A DNA stretch of 26,157 nt, from IMG/VR virus record IMGVR_UViG_3300048922_000114, positions 1 through 26,157 of that record, one strand, 5' to 3'. Positions 4,850 to 14,245 of the stretch are shown piece by piece. The DNA comes from a virus. The position numbers and the translations under genes are program-made. The notes below the pieces were generated by a model. It did not search any database. It saw only the letters and a list, made by a program, of their open reading frames with translations, and was not told the DNA's origin. How positions within the stretch are numbered: position 1 is the first letter of the stretch; each line of letters starts with the position of its first letter.

Positions 4850-5055
4850 TGCCCTCTCAAATTGGTGAAATTACCCCGATCCCGAGCCCACAGGTGCCAG
4901 TGATCAACCTTCGAACCGGTCTAATTGACCCGGCCTGGTATCTATTCCTCAAGCGCATCCATGACCATGCCAAGGAAGACGCGGGCCGCCTTGACGGGAT
5001 TGACGGAGAACTTGCGGCGCTCGACGCGCGCGTGACAGATTTGGAGACACCATAA
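4849..5055 (+). CDS. Small phage protein with C-terminal coiled coil
   Basis: 68 residues. The front half is Pro-rich (ITPIPSPQVPVINLRTGLIDPAWYLFLKRI) and the back half is a short predicted coiled coil (LDGIDGELAALDARVTDLE). It overlaps the gp10-like stop and its own stop overlaps the gp7-like start, so it is part of the operon. Genes in this place in P22 encode the gp26 tail needle; this protein is far shorter than gp26 and no homology is visible. It may be an adaptor or virion accessory protein of unknown role. Confidence 0.65.
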   Translation: MPSQIGEITPIPSPQVPVINLRTGLIDPAWYLFLKRIHDHAKEDAGRLDGIDGELAALDARVTDLETP

Positions 5056-5744
5056 TGGGTTTTCTTAGCGGCATTCTGGGCTTGGACGCCGGCAAGCCCA
5101 CGATGAGGGCGGCGGTCAATAACAAAGACCAATATGAGCGGCTTCGTGATGTCGGCCACGCGACCATCAATGATGGTCAGACGGAAGCAATAGGGGCGCT
5201 CAATCAGGCGGTGAACGCTTATTCGCCCTACGCCCAGACGGGGCAGTCAGCAAACACGATGTACGGAAATGCGCTCGGTCTTAATGGTGTGGATGGCAAC
5301 ACCGCCGCGACTAGTGCCTTTCAGGCCGGACCAGGTTACCAGTTTTCTCTTGACCAGGGGACGCAGGCAGCGTTGCGTGGCGCTAGCGCGGCTGGGATGC
5401 TGAACAGCGGCAACACGCTGACGGCTCTTTCTAGGTATGGGCAAGGGCTTGCAAATCAGGAATATGGCGGATGGCTCGACCGGTTGGCGGGGCAGTCTGC
5501 CCAAGGGCTCCAAGCCGCCAGCGGTCAGGCATCAGGATGGAACAACATTTCTGGCGCATACCAAAACTCCATTGATCGCCGCCTTAACCTAGAAGACGCC
5601 TATACCTCTGGCGTTACGGGCGCCACAAACCAAGCGGCGCAAGGCGGTGAGGCCAACAAGGCTGCTGGAGCAGGCTTCTTTGGCGGCCTCCTCAAGAACG
5701 GTATAGGCCTCGCAACGCGAGCGAAAACAGGGGGACTCTTCTAA
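5055..5744 (+). CDS. P22 gp7-like DNA ejection protein
   Basis: 229 residues, the same length as P22 gp7. The N-terminus MGFLSGILGLDAGKP, the YxPYAQTGQSANTMYGNALGL segment and the FQAGPGYQFSLDQGTQAALRGASAAGMLNSG region (about residues 91-122) are typical of gp7-like DNA-transfer proteins. The C-terminus is Gly/Ala-rich and ends FFGGLLKNGIG. Such proteins sit inside the virion and leave with the DNA to form a channel through the cell envelope. The next gene starts on its last base (TAATG). Confidence 0.85.
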   Translation: MGFLSGILGLDAGKPTMRAAVNNKDQYERLRDVGHATINDGQTEAIGALNQAVNAYSPYAQTGQSANTMYGNALGLNGVDGNTAATSAFQAGPGYQFSLDQGTQAALRGASAAGMLNSGNTLTALSRYGQGLANQEYGGWLDRLAGQSAQGLQAASGQASGWNNISGAYQNSIDRRLNLEDAYTSGVTGATNQAAQGGEANKAAGAGFFGGLLKNGIGLATRAKTGGLF

Positions 5745-7636
5745 TGGCTCTTCAACTCCCCCAGACGCCAAGCATCCCTCGGTCTGATTTTTCATGGATG
5801 GACAGCATCGGTGATACGCTCGGCGGCGCCATCGATAAAAAGAGCAGAGATTTATCCCTTTCGCGTCTCGCAGACATGTCGGTAGGATCTCCGCCATCGT
5901 CACAGGGTGGGTTTCTTTCCAGTTTAACTGGTCCACAGCAGACGCAAACTGCTCCCGTTGTCCCTGTGTCGCGTTCGGCGCTTCAAGGTGATACCTACAA
6001 ACCATTCATAGATACCGTTCGCTCTGGTGGGCTGACTAACCCATATGGCCTTGCTGCGGTCGCATCGACAGGCAAGGCTGAAAGTGGATGGTCGGCAAAG
6101 AACGCAATGCGTACGTGGAGCGACCCCAGTGAAAGCGGGCAAGCTGGCACGGCTGGCGGCATCCTGTCTTGGCGCGGCCCCCGTTATCAGGCGCTTGCTG
6201 CAACTGGCGACCTTTCCCCTGAAGGGCAGGCAAAGTTCTTTCTTCAGGAGAACCCGCAGCTTATTCAGGCCCTCAACAACGCGGGCAGCGTGGAAGAAGC
6301 ACAGCAACTTATGAACCGGGCTTGGGCGTTCGCCGGATACAATAGACCCGGTGGCGAGTCCGCTCGTCGTCTAGCGATGGCGAAAAGCTATTACTCTAAC
6401 GAGTTTGGAAACGCGCCTGCAAACGCTGGAGCCGCCGCTATCGAAGCAGTGACCCCAATCGAGCAGGGCGACACCAGCGGGAGTGAAACTGCTTACGTAG
6501 ATCCCATGGTGAAAGTTGAGCCGCGCACCGACGCCGCGCCTTATACAATGGCGTCACCCACTGCTCCTAGCCCCGCCGCAGCACCGATGCAGGTAGCAGA
6601 CTCAACCGGCGCTGCCTCTAACATGATCGCTCAGGGAGTGTCGCCCGTTCAGCGTGGGGGCGTTGACCCCTCCGTAATTCGCCAGTTGTTAAAAGACCCG
6701 CAACTCAATTCGATAGGCCTAGAACTGTGGAAGGCTAACGTTCAGGGCCAAAAAGCAAGCGAGCCTTGGCAGTTCGTCAACCTTCCAGATGGCACGCTGG
6801 CTCGTGCGAACCAGCAGACGGGCGCTGTAGAGAGGCTGGGCAATTTCGCAAAGACTGATCGGCAGGGCCTCGTCAACGCCGGAAACGGAGTTCTTTACGA
6901 CCCGAACAACAAGGAGTGGATCACCTCTCCGAGTGCTGGTCAGCAGTTCCGTCAGGCAACGTCGGAAGAGGCGAACAAGTACGGCGCACAGGCTGGACAG
7001 TTCGGACCTGACGGCAAGTTTTACCCCATAAATCCGCCGTCTGGAACTTCTTTGCAGGTTGACCCGGCTACAGGAGCCGTCACCTTTAATCAGGGTGCTG
7101 GCGTAAAGCCTCTGACAGAAGGCCAGTCGAAGGACACGGTTTATGCGACCCGCGCCACGAATGCGATGCCTCTGCTCAATCAGCATGAGGGTGCGCTGTT
7201 GAACCTTGGAGAGACCCTTGCCAATGGCATTCCAATGAATCTGGGCAACTATGCGCAGTCAGAGGAGTACCAGCTTGCCCGTGATGCTGGGAAAGACTTC
7301 CTCGCATCGATCCTTCGAAAAGACACGGGCGCAGCAGTCACCAAGTCGGAAGAAGACCTTTATGGGCGTATCTTCCTTCCCCAACCGGGTGACAAACCCG
7401 CGACTGTAGAATCCAAACGTCAACGCCGAGCCATCGCGGTTGAAGCCATCAAGGCGGGTATGCCGCCGGCAGCGATCCAGAACATGGCAAAGGCGCTAGG
7501 CACCGCTGAAAACCCCGCAAACGGTAGCAACAATAATCCGCCGCCCGCAACTAACACAGCAGCGCCGCGCGCTCGAAATCCCCAGACAGGGAAGGTTATC
7601 GAGCTTCGAAACGGCAAATGGGAAGAGGTGCCGTGA
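5744..7636 (+). CDS. Internal virion/ejection protein with lysozyme-like domain
   Basis: 630 residues. A phage tail lysozyme-type domain spans about residues 82-218 (YGLAAVASTGKAESGWSAKN, then GGILSWRGPRYQAL, then WAFAGYNRPGG); Glu113 in KAESGW is the likely catalytic acid. The rest is long, Gln/Ala/Gly-rich and poorly conserved, with a beta-rich centre (NAGNGVLYDPNNKEWIT, about 375-395) and a low-complexity Asn/Pro/Ala C-terminus ending with NGKWEEVP. The position between gp7- and gp16-like genes is that of P22 gp20. The likely role is to enter the periplasm with the DNA and cut peptidoglycan locally. Carrying the lytic domain on this ejection protein differs from P22, in which gp4 has the muralytic activity. 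Confidence 0.8.
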   Translation: MALQLPQTPSIPRSDFSWMDSIGDTLGGAIDKKSRDLSLSRLADMSVGSPPSSQGGFLSSLTGPQQTQTAPVVPVSRSALQGDTYKPFIDTVRSGGLTNPYGLAAVASTGKAESGWSAKNAMRTWSDPSESGQAGTAGGILSWRGPRYQALAATGDLSPEGQAKFFLQENPQLIQALNNAGSVEEAQQLMNRAWAFAGYNRPGGESARRLAMAKSYYSNEFGNAPANAGAAAIEAVTPIEQGDTSGSETAYVDPMVKVEPRTDAAPYTMASPTAPSPAAAPMQVADSTGAASNMIAQGVSPVQRGGVDPSVIRQLLKDPQLNSIGLELWKANVQGQKASEPWQFVNLPDGTLARANQQTGAVERLGNFAKTDRQGLVNAGNGVLYDPNNKEWITSPSAGQQFRQATSEEANKYGAQAGQFGPDGKFYPINPPSGTSLQVDPATGAVTFNQGAGVKPLTEGQSKDTVYATRATNAMPLLNQHEGALLNLGETLANGIPMNLGNYAQSEEYQLARDAGKDFLASILRKDTGAAVTKSEEDLYGRIFLPQPGDKPATVESKRQRRAIAVEAIKAGMPPAAIQNMAKALGTAENPANGSNNNPPPATNTAAPRARNPQTGKVIELRNGKWEEVP

Positions 7637-9738
7637 TGGCCGATCAGAAACTGCCGCCGTTGCCTGCCGGCTTCGTTCTTGAACAGTCGACCGAAAATGC
7701 GCCCGGCACCACGATGCCCGCGTTGCCGCCGGGTTTTGATACTACCCAGGTAAACGGTTCTGGAAAGCATCTTTCTTTCGAGGAAGGCCAAGCCATGCTC
7801 AATGCTGAGGACCAGCAGCAGCGAATGGAAGGCGCGAGCGGTGCCGTGGGTGCGGCTATCACGGGTCTCGCCAATGGTGTGCCGGTTGCTGGGCCTGCGT
7901 TGCTTGGTGCCGGCCAGCGCGGCGCAGCTATAGCTTCCACAGTCATGAACGGTGGAAGCTATGATGAAAACCTTCGACAGGCTCAGGGGATTACCCAACG
8001 GGCGCAGGAAGAGCACCCTTGGGTTACGACTGGCGCGAGTATTGCCGGTGCCGTTGGTGGCACAATCCCCATGATTGCCGCCGCTCCGGCTGCTTTTGGC
8101 GTGGGTGTGTCCAGCACCCCGGCCGCTATGGCACTGTCGGGGGCAAGCGGCCTTGCTATTGGAACCACGGATGCTGGTGTGCGCTCTGATTGGGATCCAT
8201 GGGAAATGGCCAAAGGGGGTGGTTTGGGCTTGGGCATGGGCTTGACAGGCCCTCTCGTCGGTGACTTGGCAGGGAGAGGCTATAAAGCTTTTCAGTCAAG
8301 CCGCGCGACCGCCGATGCAGCGCGGCAGGCCGGGACAAGCCCCGAAGCCGTGGATGTCGTTGCGCGCGCCATGGGAGCAGACAATGCCCTTGGTGCGACG
8401 AATGCCAACATTCAGGCCGCCGGCCCCGGAGCAATGCTGGCTGATGCTGGTCCTTCAACTCTGAGCACACTTGATACCGCCATCCAGCGTGGCGGTCCTC
8501 GTGCCGGAGAGGCAGCAAGCCGGATTAACGCACGCGCTGAACTGGCAACGCAGGATATCAACGCTGCCCTTGATGCTGGATTGGGTGCACCAGAAGGCAT
8601 GGTCAAGCCGCTCATAGCCCTTCGTCAGCAAACGCAGCCGGCACGCGCCGCCGCTTATGATGCAGCCTATGCTACACCCATTGATTACGCCGATCCTCGT
8701 GGCATTGCCTTAGAAAAGGTTGTCAAGACGCGGGTGCCACAGTCCGCTATCAACCGTGCAAACGAACTGATGCGCGTCAACGGTGAGGAAAGCCAGCAAA
8801 TCCTTGCAAAGATAGCCGATGACGGATCTGTAGTATTTGAGACGCTGCCCGATGTTCGGCAGCTTGATTACATCACCCGTGGGCTGAAGGATGTTGCCAG
8901 CGAGGCGGATGGTAAAGGCAAACTAGGCGGACAAACCGATATTGGCCGCGCCTATGAGGGCCTTTCCCGTGAGATCAGAAATCTCACCAAGTCGCTAGTG
9001 CCTGAATACAAGACAGCGCTCGACACAGCGGCGGCACCTATTGCCGCCCGAGAATCCAAGTTGTTCGGCCAGACGATGCTCTCTCCTTCCGTGGCTAGAG
9101 ACGAGGTTGAGGCCTTCGTATCTGGGCTTTCCGACGCAGAGTTGAAAAGTCTTCGTGGGGGGCTCCGGTCACAGTTTGCTGAAAAGCTCTCCAATGTGAA
9201 ACGCACCGTGAACGACCCGAACGTGGACGCTCGTCAAGGTGTTGCCGCACTTCGCGACCTTTCCAGCGATGCAGCCCGTGAAAAGCTGGCGACCGTCATG
9301 GGGAAATCCGAGGCTGATGCTATGATGAAAGCGGTGGATCAAGCCGCGAAGGCGTTTGATATCCGCGCCGGGGTTGCGACAAACAGCAGGACCTATGCAC
9401 GACAGACTGCGGAACGCGCTGTTGACGCCGCAACGCAGCCGGGCATTATCGAAAACGCTGCGAGTGGGCGCCCTTGGGCGTCTTCCCAAGGATTTTTGCA
9501 GGGGCTATTCGGGACTGGCCCGCAGGCGCAGCTTGGCAGGCAGGACGCGGCATGGGGCGAAATCGCCAATATACTGACGCAGCCAGCCAATCAGGGCGGC
9601 GGGGCATTCATGCAGGCCTTACAGGGTGCAGCGGGGAGGTTGCCCGTCATTGATCAGAATGCAGCGCGTATCACTGACGCTGTCACGAGGGGAACAGCTA
9701 TCTCCGCCGGTCCAACCAGAAGGCTAGCGGGAACATAA
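7636..9738 (+). CDS. P22 gp16-like large DNA ejection protein
   Basis: 700 residues from ATG 7636, which overlaps the previous stop (TGATG); a 7618 ATG in the same frame is less likely. The N-terminus is polar (KLPPLPAGFVLEQ with a repeated LPxGF). Then come Gly/Ala-rich hydrophobic segments near residues 60-105 and 130-175 (IAGAVGGTIPMIAAAPAAFG), able to enter a membrane, and a long helical Ala-rich C-terminal region. This pattern and size fit gp16-type ejection proteins (P22 gp16 is 609 residues). Its last 41 bases overlap the minus-strand gene that follows. Confidence 0.75.
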   Translation: MADQKLPPLPAGFVLEQSTENAPGTTMPALPPGFDTTQVNGSGKHLSFEEGQAMLNAEDQQQRMEGASGAVGAAITGLANGVPVAGPALLGAGQRGAAIASTVMNGGSYDENLRQAQGITQRAQEEHPWVTTGASIAGAVGGTIPMIAAAPAAFGVGVSSTPAAMALSGASGLAIGTTDAGVRSDWDPWEMAKGGGLGLGMGLTGPLVGDLAGRGYKAFQSSRATADAARQAGTSPEAVDVVARAMGADNALGATNANIQAAGPGAMLADAGPSTLSTLDTAIQRGGPRAGEAASRINARAELATQDINAALDAGLGAPEGMVKPLIALRQQTQPARAAAYDAAYATPIDYADPRGIALEKVVKTRVPQSAINRANELMRVNGEESQQILAKIADDGSVVFETLPDVRQLDYITRGLKDVASEADGKGKLGGQTDIGRAYEGLSREIRNLTKSLVPEYKTALDTAAAPIAARESKLFGQTMLSPSVARDEVEAFVSGLSDAELKSLRGGLRSQFAEKLSNVKRTVNDPNVDARQGVAALRDLSSDAAREKLATVMGKSEADAMMKAVDQAAKAFDIRAGVATNSRTYARQTAERAVDAATQPGIIENAASGRPWASSQGFLQGLFGTGPQAQLGRQDAAWGEIANILTQPANQGGGAFMQALQGAAGRLPVIDQNAARITDAVTRGTAISAGPTRRLAGT

Positions 9739-10923: not shown

Positions 10924-11358
10924 TTAGCCTGCCAGCGCATATTCCTCGGTATTATTCTCGTCACTTGATGAGGCTATTTCATGCTTCGCAGCCCTGGCAA
11001 GAAAGCCGGATCGGGTCAGGCCTTTGGACGCGGCGAAAGTATCGATCTCTTTCAAAACGTCCTCTGGAAGCGTGATGTTGAGGCGCACAGATTTCTTGCT
11101 CTCGGCCTTGAGCGTAACAAGGATAGCAACCGCGTCCTTATTCTCAGGATCAGCCATCACAGCATCGAGATACGAAGGCTCTGGAATAGCTTCGCCGTCT
11201 TCGATCATGCCTTCGACATGAAGCGCCAAGGCTTCTTCCGCCATACGGCGCGCGTCGTCTAGATCGGTGCCGGCCGTTACAACGCCAGGAAAGTCAGGAA
11301 AGGAAACGCCGTAATCGCTATCAGCGTCCTTGTGGATCAGTCCGATATAGTTGCGCAT
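10924..11358 (-). CDS. hicB: HicB-family antitoxin
   Basis: 144 residues from ATG 11358. The N-terminal half is the HicB partial RNase-H-like fold (YIGLIHKDADSDYGVSFPDFPGVVTAG, residues 3-30 region, then DDARRMAEEALALHVEGMIEDG). The C-terminal part is a ribbon-helix-helix DNA-binding domain (SVRLNITLPEDVLKEIDTFAASKGLTRSGFLARAA, about 90-125). HicB binds and blocks HicA and represses the operon. The toxin gene lies immediately upstream and its stop overlaps a first ATG (11364); the second ATG is preferred because GAGG lies eight bases ahead. Complete gene with an unusually long acidic tail (SSSDENNTEE). Confidence 0.88.
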   Translation of the reverse strand: MRNYIGLIHKDADSDYGVSFPDFPGVVTAGTDLDDARRMAEEALALHVEGMIEDGEAIPEPSYLDAVMADPENKDAVAILVTLKAESKKSVRLNITLPEDVLKEIDTFAASKGLTRSGFLARAAKHEIASSSDENNTEEYALAG

Positions 11359-11363
11359 GGTCA

Positions 11364-11552
11364 TTACCTCAGTTTCAGTCCGGATTGTTTTTCGATGCTT
11401 TTCAGCGTGCCTATCGGCAGGTCTCGCTTGGGATGTGGAACGGTGACGCGCCCTTGTTTTTCAGGATGCTTGAATTGAACGTGGCTGCCTTTGGTTGCCA
11501 CTTCGAACCAACCGTCTGCTTTTAATGCCGATATGATGTCGCCGCTTTTCAT
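11364..11552 (-). CDS. hicA: HicA-family mRNA interferase toxin
   Basis: 62 residues from ATG 11552, a normal HicA length. The double-stranded-RNA-binding-like fold and catalytic His are visible: DGWFEVATKGSHVQFKHPEK, with His24 in the GSH motif, then GRVTVPHPKRDLPIGTLKSIEKQSGL. HicA cuts mRNAs when HicB is lost. An in-frame ATG at 11573 would add seven residues, but it falls across the putative promoter. The stop overlaps the hicB start region, giving the usual hicAB order. Confidence 0.9.
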   Translation of the reverse strand: MKSGDIISALKADGWFEVATKGSHVQFKHPEKQGRVTVPHPKRDLPIGTLKSIEKQSGLKLR

Positions 11553-11588
11553 GTGTGTACCAATACACATCATTTGTAGTCAGGTCAA
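11553..11588 (-). promoter_or_regulatory. hicAB promoter with overlapping palindromic operator
   Basis: On the minus strand TTGACC (11588-11583) and TATTGG (11565-11560) are separated by 17 bases. A 6-bp inverted repeat TGTGTA-CCAA-TACACA (11554-11569) covers the -10 and ends two bases before the hicA ATG. This fits repression by the HicB ribbon-helix-helix domain. A start of transcription about seven bases after the -10 would fall on the ATG, giving an almost leaderless message. The -10 matches the consensus only in its first three bases. Confidence 0.5.
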
Positions 11589-11603: not shown

Positions 11604-12002
11604 TCAGTCGCGGTTCTTGCGCGCTGTTCGTACTTGGTGATCTGTTTCCTCAGGTGGCGCCAGTGCGGCTTCGATACGAGCTACCCGTTCGTTGATCGCA
11701 GCAAGCATTTCATCCATGCCTTGCTCGGTCAGGACCTTAGTCCGCTTCGCGGCCTTTCGCTCGTTGTCCTCAATGAAAAGGTGCATCCTATCAAGCTCGT
11801 CCTCCGGCACGTTGCCGAGCGGCTCTAGGCCGCTCTGCAACCTAGTATAGTCAGCCTGAAATAGTGCTGACTCAAGCATGTAAACGATCTGCATATTCAT
11901 TGAGCGACCGCCGGCCTCCGCGTGAGCTTTGATTCTGTCCCTCATGCCTTCAGGCATGCGGATCATGAACTTGTTCTGATCTCTCGTCGCGTTGTCAGAC
12001 AT
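11604..12002 (-). CDS. Arc-like ribbon-helix-helix repressor
   Basis: 132 residues. Residues about 10-48 (NKFMIRMPEGMRDRIKAHAEAGGRSMNMQIVYMLESAL) are a clear Arc-family RHH domain: a beta strand with alternating contacts, then two helices and the GRSMN turn. The remaining 80 residues are charged and helical (about 70-118), perhaps an oligomerisation region absent from the 53-residue P22 Arc. It faces a divergent RHH gene, with repeated sites between them that it may bind. Position between ejection and tail genes is that of P22 arc/mnt. No strong Shine-Dalgarno is seen before the ATG. Confidence 0.85.
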   Translation of the reverse strand: MSDNATRDQNKFMIRMPEGMRDRIKAHAEAGGRSMNMQIVYMLESALFQADYTRLQSGLEPLGNVPEDELDRMHLFIEDNERKAAKRTKVLTEQGMDEMLAAINERVARIEAALAPPEETDHQVRTARKNRD

Positions 12003-12040
12003 AGAAATACGGGAACCCTATCAAGAGGTTATAAGAAATA

Positions 12041-12092
12041 CGCCCAAATGCCACTAGTGCCCTATTGCTACTATAGCGCCCAAATGCCACTA
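12041..12092. promoter_or_regulatory. Operator-like repeats between divergent RHH genes
   Basis: A 16-bp direct repeat, CGCCCAAATGCCACTA, occurs at 12041-12056 and 12077-12092 (36 bp apart). Between them a third partial copy, TGCTACTA, lies at 12066-12073. The motif is thus TGCYACTA at 12049, 12066 and 12085. The first copy continues into the 8-bp palindrome CACTAGTG (12053-12060). RHH proteins bind repeated short sites, and both flanking genes encode RHH proteins. AT-rich hexamers suitable as -10 elements overlap the repeats, but no promoter can be fixed. Confidence 0.6.
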
Positions 12093-12126
12093 TGAACTTG
12101 TACCACAAAGCGCAAAGGAGGCAATC

Positions 12127-12300
12127 GTGGCCGAAATGAAAAGCGAGAGGATTCCGATTACCATGGAGCCGTCGCTGCTGACTAAAGTGGATGATTTCCG
12201 TTTTGGCAATCGCATCCAATCCAGAACAGCAGCCGTGCGCGCCCTGATCGAAAAAGGTCTGGAGTGCGTTGAAAACGAAAAGAGCGGGACACCGGCCTGA
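12127..12300 (+). CDS. 57-residue ribbon-helix-helix regulator
   Basis: Starts at GTG 12127, five bases after a strong AAAGGAGG site. The 57-residue product contains RIPITMEPSLLTKVDDFRF, then RIQSRTAAVRALIEKGLE: an alternating strand, a helix, a short turn and a second helix, as in CopG/MetJ-type RHH proteins. The tail is polar (CVENEKSGTPA). It is transcribed away from the Arc-like gene, with repeated sites in between. It is the first gene of the operon that runs to 14177. A regulator of this operon or of the divergent gene is likely. Confidence 0.8.
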   Translation: MAEMKSERIPITMEPSLLTKVDDFRFGNRIQSRTAAVRALIEKGLECVENEKSGTPA

Positions 12301-12353
12301 GAAACCGTCCCGCTCAATTCAGCAACACAATCTGGAAAGAAGGATATTGCGCT

Positions 12354-12644
12354 ATGGACAATAGCAGTAGCGGCATTGTTTTGCAATCTGCTCGGCAAGG
12401 CGGTTCTTGTCTTGTCGTAATTGAGGGCGGGCGAGGCGCCCCTCGCAACGTTGCCCGCATTAACGCGCTAATTGAAAGCCTTACAGAGGCTCAGTTGGTG
12501 GGTTTCAACAAGTTCCTCCTATGCCTCCGTTGCCCGCTTTCAAAGGCGTGCATCCCCTTCAAGCTGTATGAGCAAGCCGATCCTGACGACCCGCTCAATC
12601 CTGCTTTTGGGGCCTGCGCACGACGCAGGGAACTGGAGAACTGA
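12354..12644 (+). CDS. Hypothetical protein with clustered cysteines
   Basis: 96 residues. The N-terminal half is hydrophobic/Gly-rich (GGSCLVVIEGGRGAPRNVARINALIESL); the C-terminal half has CLRCPLSKAC and a later Cys (GACARRRELEN), four Cys in a pattern that could hold a metal. A GAAGGA site lies upstream of the ATG. It lies between the RHH gene and the ParB-domain gene and is presumably co-transcribed. No family recognised. Confidence 0.6.
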   Translation: MDNSSSGIVLQSARQGGSCLVVIEGGRGAPRNVARINALIESLTEAQLVGFNKFLLCLRCPLSKACIPFKLYEQADPDDPLNPAFGACARRRELEN

Positions 12645-12765
12645 AATCTGAATACCCTTGGCCAAAGGGGAAAGCGTGGACACCGAGCTTCCTTCGGCGC
12701 TCGGTTCCGCGAATGCGGACCAGTGCGCTTCTGGCTTGGCCGGCCGGGCGTCGAAGGAGACCAAA

Positions 12766-13683
12766 ATGGTTATAGAATATGGAAAAGCGGAGGACGTGAA
12801 ACCGGCAGACATTCAGCCTCACTATTTGGCGAATCTATTTCCGATGATGGACGAGCCAGACCTTGCTGAATTGGTTCGTGACATAGAGCGGTTTGGCCAA
12901 AGAGAGCCTATCGTTCTGCTGGACAATAAAATTCTTGATGGCCGAAACCGGTTCAAGGCCTGCTTGCAACTTGGGATCACTCCGAAATTCAGAGAATACC
13001 ACGGCAACGACCCTATCGGGTTTGTGGTTAGCCTGAACCTGAAGAGAAGACATCTCACAACATCGCAGAGGGCGATGGTTGCGGCGCGGATAGCAAACCT
13101 CGCGGTTGGGAGCAATCAGCACGTTCACCGTTTGAAGCAGGACAATATGACGGGTGAGGAATTTTCCCCACCCATGACAGTCACCGCTAAAACGATGAAA
13201 ATCGATCGGAAGACGGGACAGGCCGCGAAAACAGTCCTGAGTACTGGTCATGTGGATCTTATCGCGGCGGTTGATCAAGGGGAGATTTCGGTATCTGCGG
13301 CTGCCATTATCGCCAAAGAACCAAAAGACGTGCAGCAGTTGGTGATGACCCCTTCGCAAGACAAGGAGTTATCGACGGCTCTCAAGCGTCTGCAGAACGC
13401 CAAAGCGCAAGATGATGAAGCCGACAAGTTTGTTCCGCCTGATCCCCTCAGCGAGGACGAGAAAGCCGAACGCGAGCGAATCTTCGGCACTCGCGAGGTT
13501 CGCAGTTTTCTCTCAAAGGTGCTGACGACTTCGGAGATCATTCCAACTCTGCCGTCGCCTGAGGATCTGGCGCGATCTGTTCCAGCGGCAATGGAAAATA
13601 TCATCACTGACAACATCAACGCTATGCGGGAGGTGTCGAAGTGGTTCGACGCTTTCGCTACTGCATGGCAGGCCAAGGAGTAA
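12766..13683 (+). CDS. ParB/Srx-domain protein
   Basis: 305 residues from ATG 12766 (GAAGGAG just ahead; an open frame from 12658 adds 36 unlikely residues). Residues about 10-110 form a ParB/sulfiredoxin-like domain: IQPHYLANLFPMM, LVRDIERFGQREPIVLL, then LDGRNRFKAC (DGRNR at 58-62 in place of the GxRR box), then NLKRRHLTTSQRAMVAARIANL. A helical region with GHVDLIAAVDQGEISVSAAAIIAK follows, as in the middle (HTH-like) part of ParB-type proteins. The C-terminus is acidic and helical. Related proteins are common on rhizobial mobile elements; phage function is uncertain: DNA binding, nuclease-like or CTPase-like activity are possibilities. Confidence 0.8.
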   Translation: MVIEYGKAEDVKPADIQPHYLANLFPMMDEPDLAELVRDIERFGQREPIVLLDNKILDGRNRFKACLQLGITPKFREYHGNDPIGFVVSLNLKRRHLTTSQRAMVAARIANLAVGSNQHVHRLKQDNMTGEEFSPPMTVTAKTMKIDRKTGQAAKTVLSTGHVDLIAAVDQGEISVSAAAIIAKEPKDVQQLVMTPSQDKELSTALKRLQNAKAQDDEADKFVPPDPLSEDEKAERERIFGTREVRSFLSKVLTTSEIIPTLPSPEDLARSVPAAMENIITDNINAMREVSKWFDAFATAWQAKE

Positions 13684-13688
13684 GCGGA

Positions 13689-14177
13689 ATGTCGAATTTC
13701 ACTGATATCGTTGACAAGGAAGTTCTTGCTGAGCTTGAAAAGCCGAAGGTTCGTAGCAAGGGTTTCATACAGTCACAATTGGCGCGGGCCATTTGGGACC
13801 AGATCGATGACGATCAAAAGTTCCAGGTTGGCCATCCCCAGCTTATCCGAGCAATCAATCGCTCCGCTAAGAAGCACATGAAGAGCGCTTTGGCGAAGTA
13901 CGAGACCGCCGAATATCAGCTTCCATTCAACATCGACGGTGCCATTTCCATCCCGGATGGGGAGACACAGACGATCCGGATCACTGAAACGCTGTCGCAA
14001 GACGATTGGGATCGAGCCTTTGATGAAAGGCGAAAGCAGCACGAAGCTTACGGCAATGCTCTTGAAGAGTATGCCAACGCCAACAGAATGTTGAAACCGA
14101 TATGGAAAACGCACCCGAAATGGACGGTCGGTCAGTGCATCCGACAGATTGTTAAAGATGCGTCCCGCAAGAAGTAG
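13689..14177 (+). CDS. Hypothetical protein following the ParB-domain gene
   Basis: 162 residues from ATG 13689, which has AAGGAG eight bases ahead and sits just after the ParB-domain stop; an open frame from 13641 overlaps that gene and is unlikely. It is charged and mostly helical: KGFIQSQLARAIWDQIDDDQ in the front, a beta-like centre (YQLPFNIDGAISIPDGETQTIRI) and a helical end with KPIWKTHPKWTVGQCIRQIV. No membrane segment. The terminator after it makes it the last gene of the operon. Family not recognised. Confidence 0.65.
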   Translation: MSNFTDIVDKEVLAELEKPKVRSKGFIQSQLARAIWDQIDDDQKFQVGHPQLIRAINRSAKKHMKSALAKYETAEYQLPFNIDGAISIPDGETQTIRITETLSQDDWDRAFDERRKQHEAYGNALEEYANANRMLKPIWKTHPKWTVGQCIRQIVKDASRKK

Positions 14178-14206
14178 GCGAACAGAGCACACCCAAAGTC
14201 CTCAGT

Positions 14207-14233
14207 GGCGGTTCTTCGGAGCCGCCTTTTTTT
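14207..14233 (+). terminator. Intrinsic terminator with UUCG tetraloop
   Basis: Stem arms 14207-14214 and 14219-14226 (GGCGGTTC / GAGCCGCC, one G-T pair) close on the very stable C(TTCG)G loop and are followed by seven T (14227-14233). This closes the operon that begins at 12127 and stands only 13 bases before the spike base gene start. Confidence 0.9.
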
Positions 14234-14245
14234 ATGGAGGCCGCA

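Follow-up and report, generated by a model that had tools for sequence, protein, structure and literature searches.

A proposed phage immunity-type module whose ParB-like gene is preceded by a previously undescribed structured RNA leader

Main findings

Our analysis has shown that a swappable gene unit resembling the immI region of phage P22 lies between the DNA-ejection and tail genes of the phage contig IMGVR_UViG_3300048922_000114, and that the main gene of this unit is preceded by a structured RNA of about 105 nt that has not been described before. The whole stretch of 26,157 nt that was analysed is referred to here as the window. Covariance models recovered 40 distinct copies of this RNA, mostly in Hyphomicrobiales phages, where it also precedes antirepressor genes and the RNA-guided VIPR systems of phage conflict. 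The RNA therefore marks, and probably controls, a slot for genes used by phages against other phages. The fold of the RNA is established by covariation, whereas its regulatory action and the function of the ParB-like protein are inferred from sequence.

Organization of the module

The window is identical (100%) to IMG/VR contig 3300048925_000643 (L001; L-numbers denote the loci that were compared). The ejection genes occupy 5055-9738 (phrog_5880 to the left of the region, phrog_598 upstream) and the tail-fibre genes begin at 14234 (phrog_12296, phrog_8763). Between them lie, in order, two unknown genes, a HicB/HicA toxin-antitoxin pair that sits directly beside the module in the same cargo region, and the features listed in Table 1. 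The first-pass annotation had described an Arc-like repressor facing an operon of a short RHH regulator, a four-Cys protein, a ParB/Srx-domain protein with a DGRNR motif and an unknown 162-aa protein, with its own control region and a strong terminator and without an Ant/KilA-N/BRO antirepressor. This description was correct, as every item that it named exists at this locus and no antirepressor family was found within the module by profile search. It did not, however, include the RNA or the HicA/HicB pair. A search for known defence systems with PADLOC gave no useful hit.

Table 1. Features of the module and its left neighbour in the window
Position	Strand	Feature	Evidence
10924-11573	-	HicB/HicA pair	PF15919 E=1e-38; PF07927 E=1e-22
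11604-12002	-	Arc-like RHH repressor, divergent from the operon	PF03869 E=4e-13; Arc homologues face the operon in L002 and L158
12041-12092	.	Operator region (inferred): three tandem 16-nt repeats CGCCCAAATGCCACTA, two identical and one 75%, spacing 17 and 19	Repeat analysis
12127-12300	+	Second short RHH regulator, 57 aa, C-terminus ENEKSGTPA	phrog_4738 (transcriptional repressor) E=3.5e-12, no Pfam hit; C-terminal tail shared with RHH proteins of L002, L158 and L159
12277-12320	+	Hairpin GAGCGGGAC...GTCCCGCTC across the stop codon of the second RHH gene, within a 45-nt segment 100% identical in L002	Folding z=-4.1; near-identical in L158 and L159
12354-12644	+	Gene a: Cys-rich protein, 96 aa, five cysteines, four of them in CxxCx5C...C; position-specific to this phage	Real ORF; no family
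12655-12759	+	Structured RNA leader: P0 12655-12659/12665-12669; PK1 12660-12664/12737-12741; PK3 12672-12677/12725-12730; anti-SD arm 12689-12698 with SD arm 12750-12759; 12700-12704/12744-12748; P3 12706-12710/12715-12719; P4 12720-12723/12731-12734; alternative helix 12682-12687/12700-12705	Covariance model hit of 95.9 bits with the window left out of the model; covariation
12754-12759	+	Shine-Dalgarno AAGGAG in the 3' arm of the closing stem, 6 nt before the ATG	Spacing 5-10 nt in relatives
12766-13683	+	Gene b: ParB/Spo0J-like protein, 305 aa, with N-domain, HTH region, DGRNR motif and C-terminal helical tail	phrog_21315 E=2e-28; ParB-like phrog_4715 E=8e-12; profile hits to solved Noc/Spo0J/ParB N-domains, E down to 6e-10
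13689-14177	+	Gene c: orf5, 162 aa, partner of the ParB-like gene	97% in L002 and 36% in L009; no family
14207-14233	+	Rho-independent terminator GGCGGTTCTTCGGAGCCGCC-T7 (hairpin 14207-14226)	Terminator search

The ORF of the ParB-like gene had been listed as starting at TTG 12658. This start was rejected because the reading frame is broken there in L002, the nearest relative of the window, and because the stretch is the RNA; the true start is ATG 12766. We also considered a conserved leader peptide (V/L-R-F-W-L-G-R-P) encoded in the core of the element, but codon third positions do not vary and the frame relative to gene b changes, and this reading was rejected as well. An AF2 model of the ParB-like protein was too poor to use (pLDDT 55). 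In L068 (5035-6153), a metagenome-assembled genome, the ParB-like gene is split into two frames, by either a true mutation or an assembly error.

The first-pass annotation had treated the five genes as one module, and conserved co-occurrence had been set as a test of this view. The result was negative, as relatives keep pieces of the unit and exchange the rest. L002 retains the tail of the second RHH protein, the RNA, the ParB-like protein (69%) and orf5 (97%), but has a different Arc and a different gene a. The ParB family is broad, with 407 relatives in viral contigs, and most of these relatives lack the RNA. Orf5 was not found in 200 Rhizobiaceae genomes, and a search of phage records gave no hit. 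Gene a is often a small protein with a twin-arginine-like signal (e.g. MMDRRTVLKGG), as in L002 (7579-7875), L009 (5086-5343, minus strand), L098 (1115-1483), L102 (6361-6738) and L108 (upstream of the RNA), and could be an envelope or exclusion factor. In L013 (6517-6972) gene a is a CI-like C-terminal (S24-type) domain without HTH (phrog_6201 E=1.5e-4), perhaps a repressor decoy, and a similar small protein is present at L096 5544-5903.

A conserved RNA in front of gene b

Comparison of the window with L002 showed that 12645-12763 is strongly conserved although the gene upstream is different. The stretch folds into a long closing stem, the last bases of which are the Shine-Dalgarno of the ParB-like gene. 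A pattern of the core was used to find further copies. A covariance model built from six of these, not including the window (R1), scored the window at 102.7 bits. Searches of whole genomes added divergent copies, and a second model built from 11 copies, again without the window (R2), gave the score listed in Table 1. A looser pattern in viral contigs gave 34 matching rows in all, and the final alignment (A12) holds 40 distinct copies. R2 was specific: a pattern scan of 84,980 genomes gave 71 hits, of which 70 were judged by context to be chance, and R2 found nothing in the 522 kb of those 70 loci. The RNA was present in about 7 of some 796 Hyphomicrobiales-level genomes and in 1 further among 385 alphaproteobacterial genomes, with none further in 200 of the phylum; these are lower bounds, since few candidates per genome were scored. 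A blastn search of GenBank phages found no copy, although blastn is a weak method for this purpose.

The fold comprises P0 (CCC/GGG and extension), PK1 (the P0 loop with UGGCC), PK3 (the linker after P0 with the P4 loop), the closing stem with its anti-SD and SD arms, P3 and P4. On A12, 38 base pairs including the two pseudoknots gave 97.4% paired cells, with compensatory changes in 22 pairs and 214 double-change cells against 66 +/- 6 in shuffles. The covariation score was 0.426 against 0.166 +/- 0.008, none of 500 shuffles was as high, and the score was at most 0.09 when the structure was slid along the alignment. PK1 and PK3 alone, which were not part of the aligning model, gave 79 double-change cells against 28.5 +/- 3.7, with examples such as GGCCA/UGGCC, GACCA/UGGUC, CCGCCA/UGGCGG and CGCAAA/UUUGCG. 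Persistent G-U pairs (24 of 40 at one position) fit RNA. A competing helix (the alternative helix of Table 1, which is extendable) is also kept, and the early transcript is predicted to form it first. Swapping partners between sequences cost 0.9 to 6 kcal/mol on average for the five helices tested, including the competing one, on 15 representatives below 80% identity (p from 5e-5 to 1e-3). Relatedness is only partly controlled in these statistics and the covariance model alignment leans towards its own nested structure; the pseudoknots and a MAFFT alignment (A9) are the independent checks. No Rfam family matched the element: for c4 (RF01695) or any other family there were 0 hits at the gathering threshold in 12 loci, and none with relaxed filters in two short stretches. 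Among the papers searched, none describes this RNA, and the main text of the VIPR paper does not mention it.

Genes that follow the RNA

In all 40 copies a gene follows, with an ATG 5-10 nt beyond the RNA in all but one; counted over rows, an ATG gene begins 5-10 nt after the GGAG in 46 of 48. These genes are unrelated. Of the 40 distinct copies, 23 precede phrog_4652-type proteins, 8 precede ParB-like proteins as in the window, 6 precede antirepressors and 3 precede others (one HNH endonuclease, one weakly helicase-like and one unknown). The antirepressors are of the Bro-N/Ant (L100, L125, L132), Rha-KilAC (L137) and phrog_63 Ant-like (L118, L112) types. The phrog_4652 profile matches the solved Vipr RAMP protein of SUSP1 (PDB 36pp) at E=9e-9, and its predicted model (pTM 0.76) resembles Csm3/Cas7 subunits. 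GGY/NN tracts lie about 0.8-2.3 kb downstream, with 7-12 of 15 units in phase in almost all Vipr-type loci with enough sequence, against 3-5 in other loci; L116 (3) and L121 (4) are exceptions. These are therefore VIPR systems as described in PMC13142463, where VIPR acts between phages and can silence or induce prophages. In Hyphomicrobiales prophages such as L096, L097, L098, L102, L105, L109, L110, L135 and L145, the guide-RNA tracts lie about 1.2-2.3 kb downstream of the RNA, and each system has a downstream gene of phrog_15946 type that is a possible vap.

The end of the second RHH gene with its hairpin recurs almost identically in four otherwise divergent phages (window 12277-12320; L002 7499-7543; L158 3147-3180; L159 546-579). 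No T tract follows the hairpin, so it may be an attenuator or a processing site. The same Arc / RHH-ENEKSGTPA / hairpin head lies upstream of an ORF6N antirepressor in L159 (phrog_4608 E=1e-27, PF10543 E=4e-14) and of the stump of an antA-like gene in L158. In L158 (3211-5104) the reading frame after the hairpin begins like AntA proteins but runs into tape-measure sequence, as if a deletion had removed the rest of an immI module; for comparison, L096 has an intact AntA gene (PF08346 E=4e-25). The head of the window module is therefore the head of an immI-type unit.

Interpretation

With moderate confidence, we interpret this locus as an immI-like inter-phage conflict module inserted in the late genes of a Hyphomicrobiales podovirus-type phage. 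The first-pass interpretation is thus supported in part: its analogy with the P22 position that holds arc-ant-mnt, and its suggestion of an undescribed immunity, defence or DNA-handling unit, agree with our results, while the proposal of a five-gene unit is not supported. What the analysis shows directly is the set of genes, the RNA fold by covariation, the inclusion of the Shine-Dalgarno in that fold and the exchange of gene b among conflict-type genes; the remainder of the model is inferred. In this view, the two RHH proteins would bind the tandem repeats and repress both promoters. The closing stem of the leader pairs the Shine-Dalgarno of gene b with an upstream anti-SD, and the competing helix can break up the inner part of that stem. 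Genes b and c are therefore probably translated only when the leader is in its open state, at a time fixed by transcription, a protein or another factor. The predicted cost of opening the Shine-Dalgarno region in the window (10.9 kcal/mol) is high but not unique (20 other genes: median 6.2, maximum 11.8), which weakens any claim that it is a strong outlier, and the gating claim rests on conservation rather than on energy. Gene b, which is an antirepressor or a Vipr RAMP protein in relatives, is here a ParB-like DNA-binding protein (binding inferred from homology) that, with its partner orf5, most likely acts on the control DNA or repressor of a resident or competing phage. Against this interpretation, the module itself contains no antirepressor or Vipr gene, and ParB relatives are common in phages and plasmids, mostly without the RNA.

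A bolder reading, which we regard as tentative, is that this new class of pseudoknotted, bistable leader RNA is the common translational switch of inter-phage conflict cargo (VIPR, antirepressors, ParB-orf5) in Hyphomicrobiales phages, sensing a phage life-cycle or competitor signal, and that ParB-like/orf5 proteins are a third, undescribed effector type in this slot. With these results an unexplained ParB gene becomes a member of a recognisable slot, in which one RNA marks where rhizobial phages carry genes used against other phages, including the newly described VIPR systems. The covariance model offers a search handle for unknown conflict genes, the covariation supplies mutants with which gating of translation can be tested directly, and the question of how VIPR and antirepressor genes embedded in late operons are kept quiet until needed becomes testable.

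Of the alternatives, the one that we consider possible, although doubtful, is that the leader only insulates inserted genes from read-through of late transcripts without sensing any signal, as RBS-occluding hairpins do for the homing endonucleases of phage T4. Copies of the RNA lie inside head and tail operons, sometimes directly behind portal or tail genes without regulators of their own, and one cargo gene is an HNH endonuclease. However, two conserved pseudoknots, a competing helix and long invariant loops are more than simple occlusion needs. It is unlikely that the ParB-like gene is an ordinary partition or DNA-maintenance gene of a phage-plasmid with the RNA as its mere leader. The homology of the N-domain, the annotation of relatives as partition proteins in plasmids, and the R. 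serenus copy of the RNA on a plasmid record are consistent with this view. On the other hand, no ParA-like gene was found in the module or among the window genes scanned, the gene sits between structural genes, and the same RNA precedes antirepressors and VIPR genes that do not partition DNA; in R. serenus itself it precedes a Vipr-type gene.

Two further possibilities are also unlikely. The element could work as DNA, either as a folded recombination or insertion site (attC-like) or as a protein-binding palindrome that lets gene cassettes be exchanged, since the downstream genes are unrelated and swapped, a folded single DNA strand would also show covariation, P0 is palindromic, and sequence identity between the window and L002 begins and ends abruptly. 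Nevertheless, all copies have one orientation with the Shine-Dalgarno inside the stem and the ATG shortly after it, wobble pairs are kept in many sequences, which suits RNA, the element occurs once per locus and not in arrays, and no integrase-type recombinase was seen near it in the loci inspected. Alternatively, the RNA could be processed and act in trans as an antisense RNA (sar- or c4-like) or as a guide or scaffold for the Vipr or ParB protein. The sar and c4 RNAs act on ant mRNA, the anti-SD segment CUCCUU could pair with other copies, and Vipr proteins bind structured RNA tails (PMC13142463). Against this, the anti-SD covaries with the SD arm of its own transcript in every copy, there is no GGY/NN tract in the element, and ParB-type loci carry no Vipr and no array.

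Comparison with known systems

The ParB-like protein shares the N-domain, the DGRNR motif and the HTH region with the ParB/Spo0J/Noc/KorB family, but it has its own C-terminal helical tail, an orf5 partner and a late-gene location in a phage; no ParA ATPase was found among the neighbouring genes scanned, and no parS site is known for this clade. With VIPR systems (Vipr, vap and vrRNA) the module shares phage late-gene slots and the leader, as more than half of the copies of the RNA precede vipr-type genes, nearly all with GGY/NN arrays. The window itself, however, encodes no Vipr, has no GGY/NN tract of six or more units and shows at most 5 of 15 units in phase downstream of the element, so that a vrRNA in the window was rejected. 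The c4 antisense RNA of P1/P7 (RF01695; PMC2864571) is likewise a structured phage RNA linked to the RBS of an antirepressor, but here the Shine-Dalgarno and anti-SD lie in one 105-nt fold directly before the start codon. Finally, the P22 immI region (mnt/arc/ant with sar RNA) resembles the module in its Arc-type RHH regulators with their own control region, in its position between ejection and tail genes and in the antirepressors that occupy the slot in relatives (L100, L125, L132, L137 and L159). Control of effector translation at the RNA level is only suggested in the module, where an SD-sequestering, covarying RNA is present. P22 sar and P1 c4 RNAs repress antirepressor translation (PMC12197685). 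The module differs from immI in that it has a ParB-like gene plus orf5 in place of Ant, and in that its RNA is a cis leader on the sense strand with pseudoknots, whereas sar is a 68/69-nt antisense RNA.
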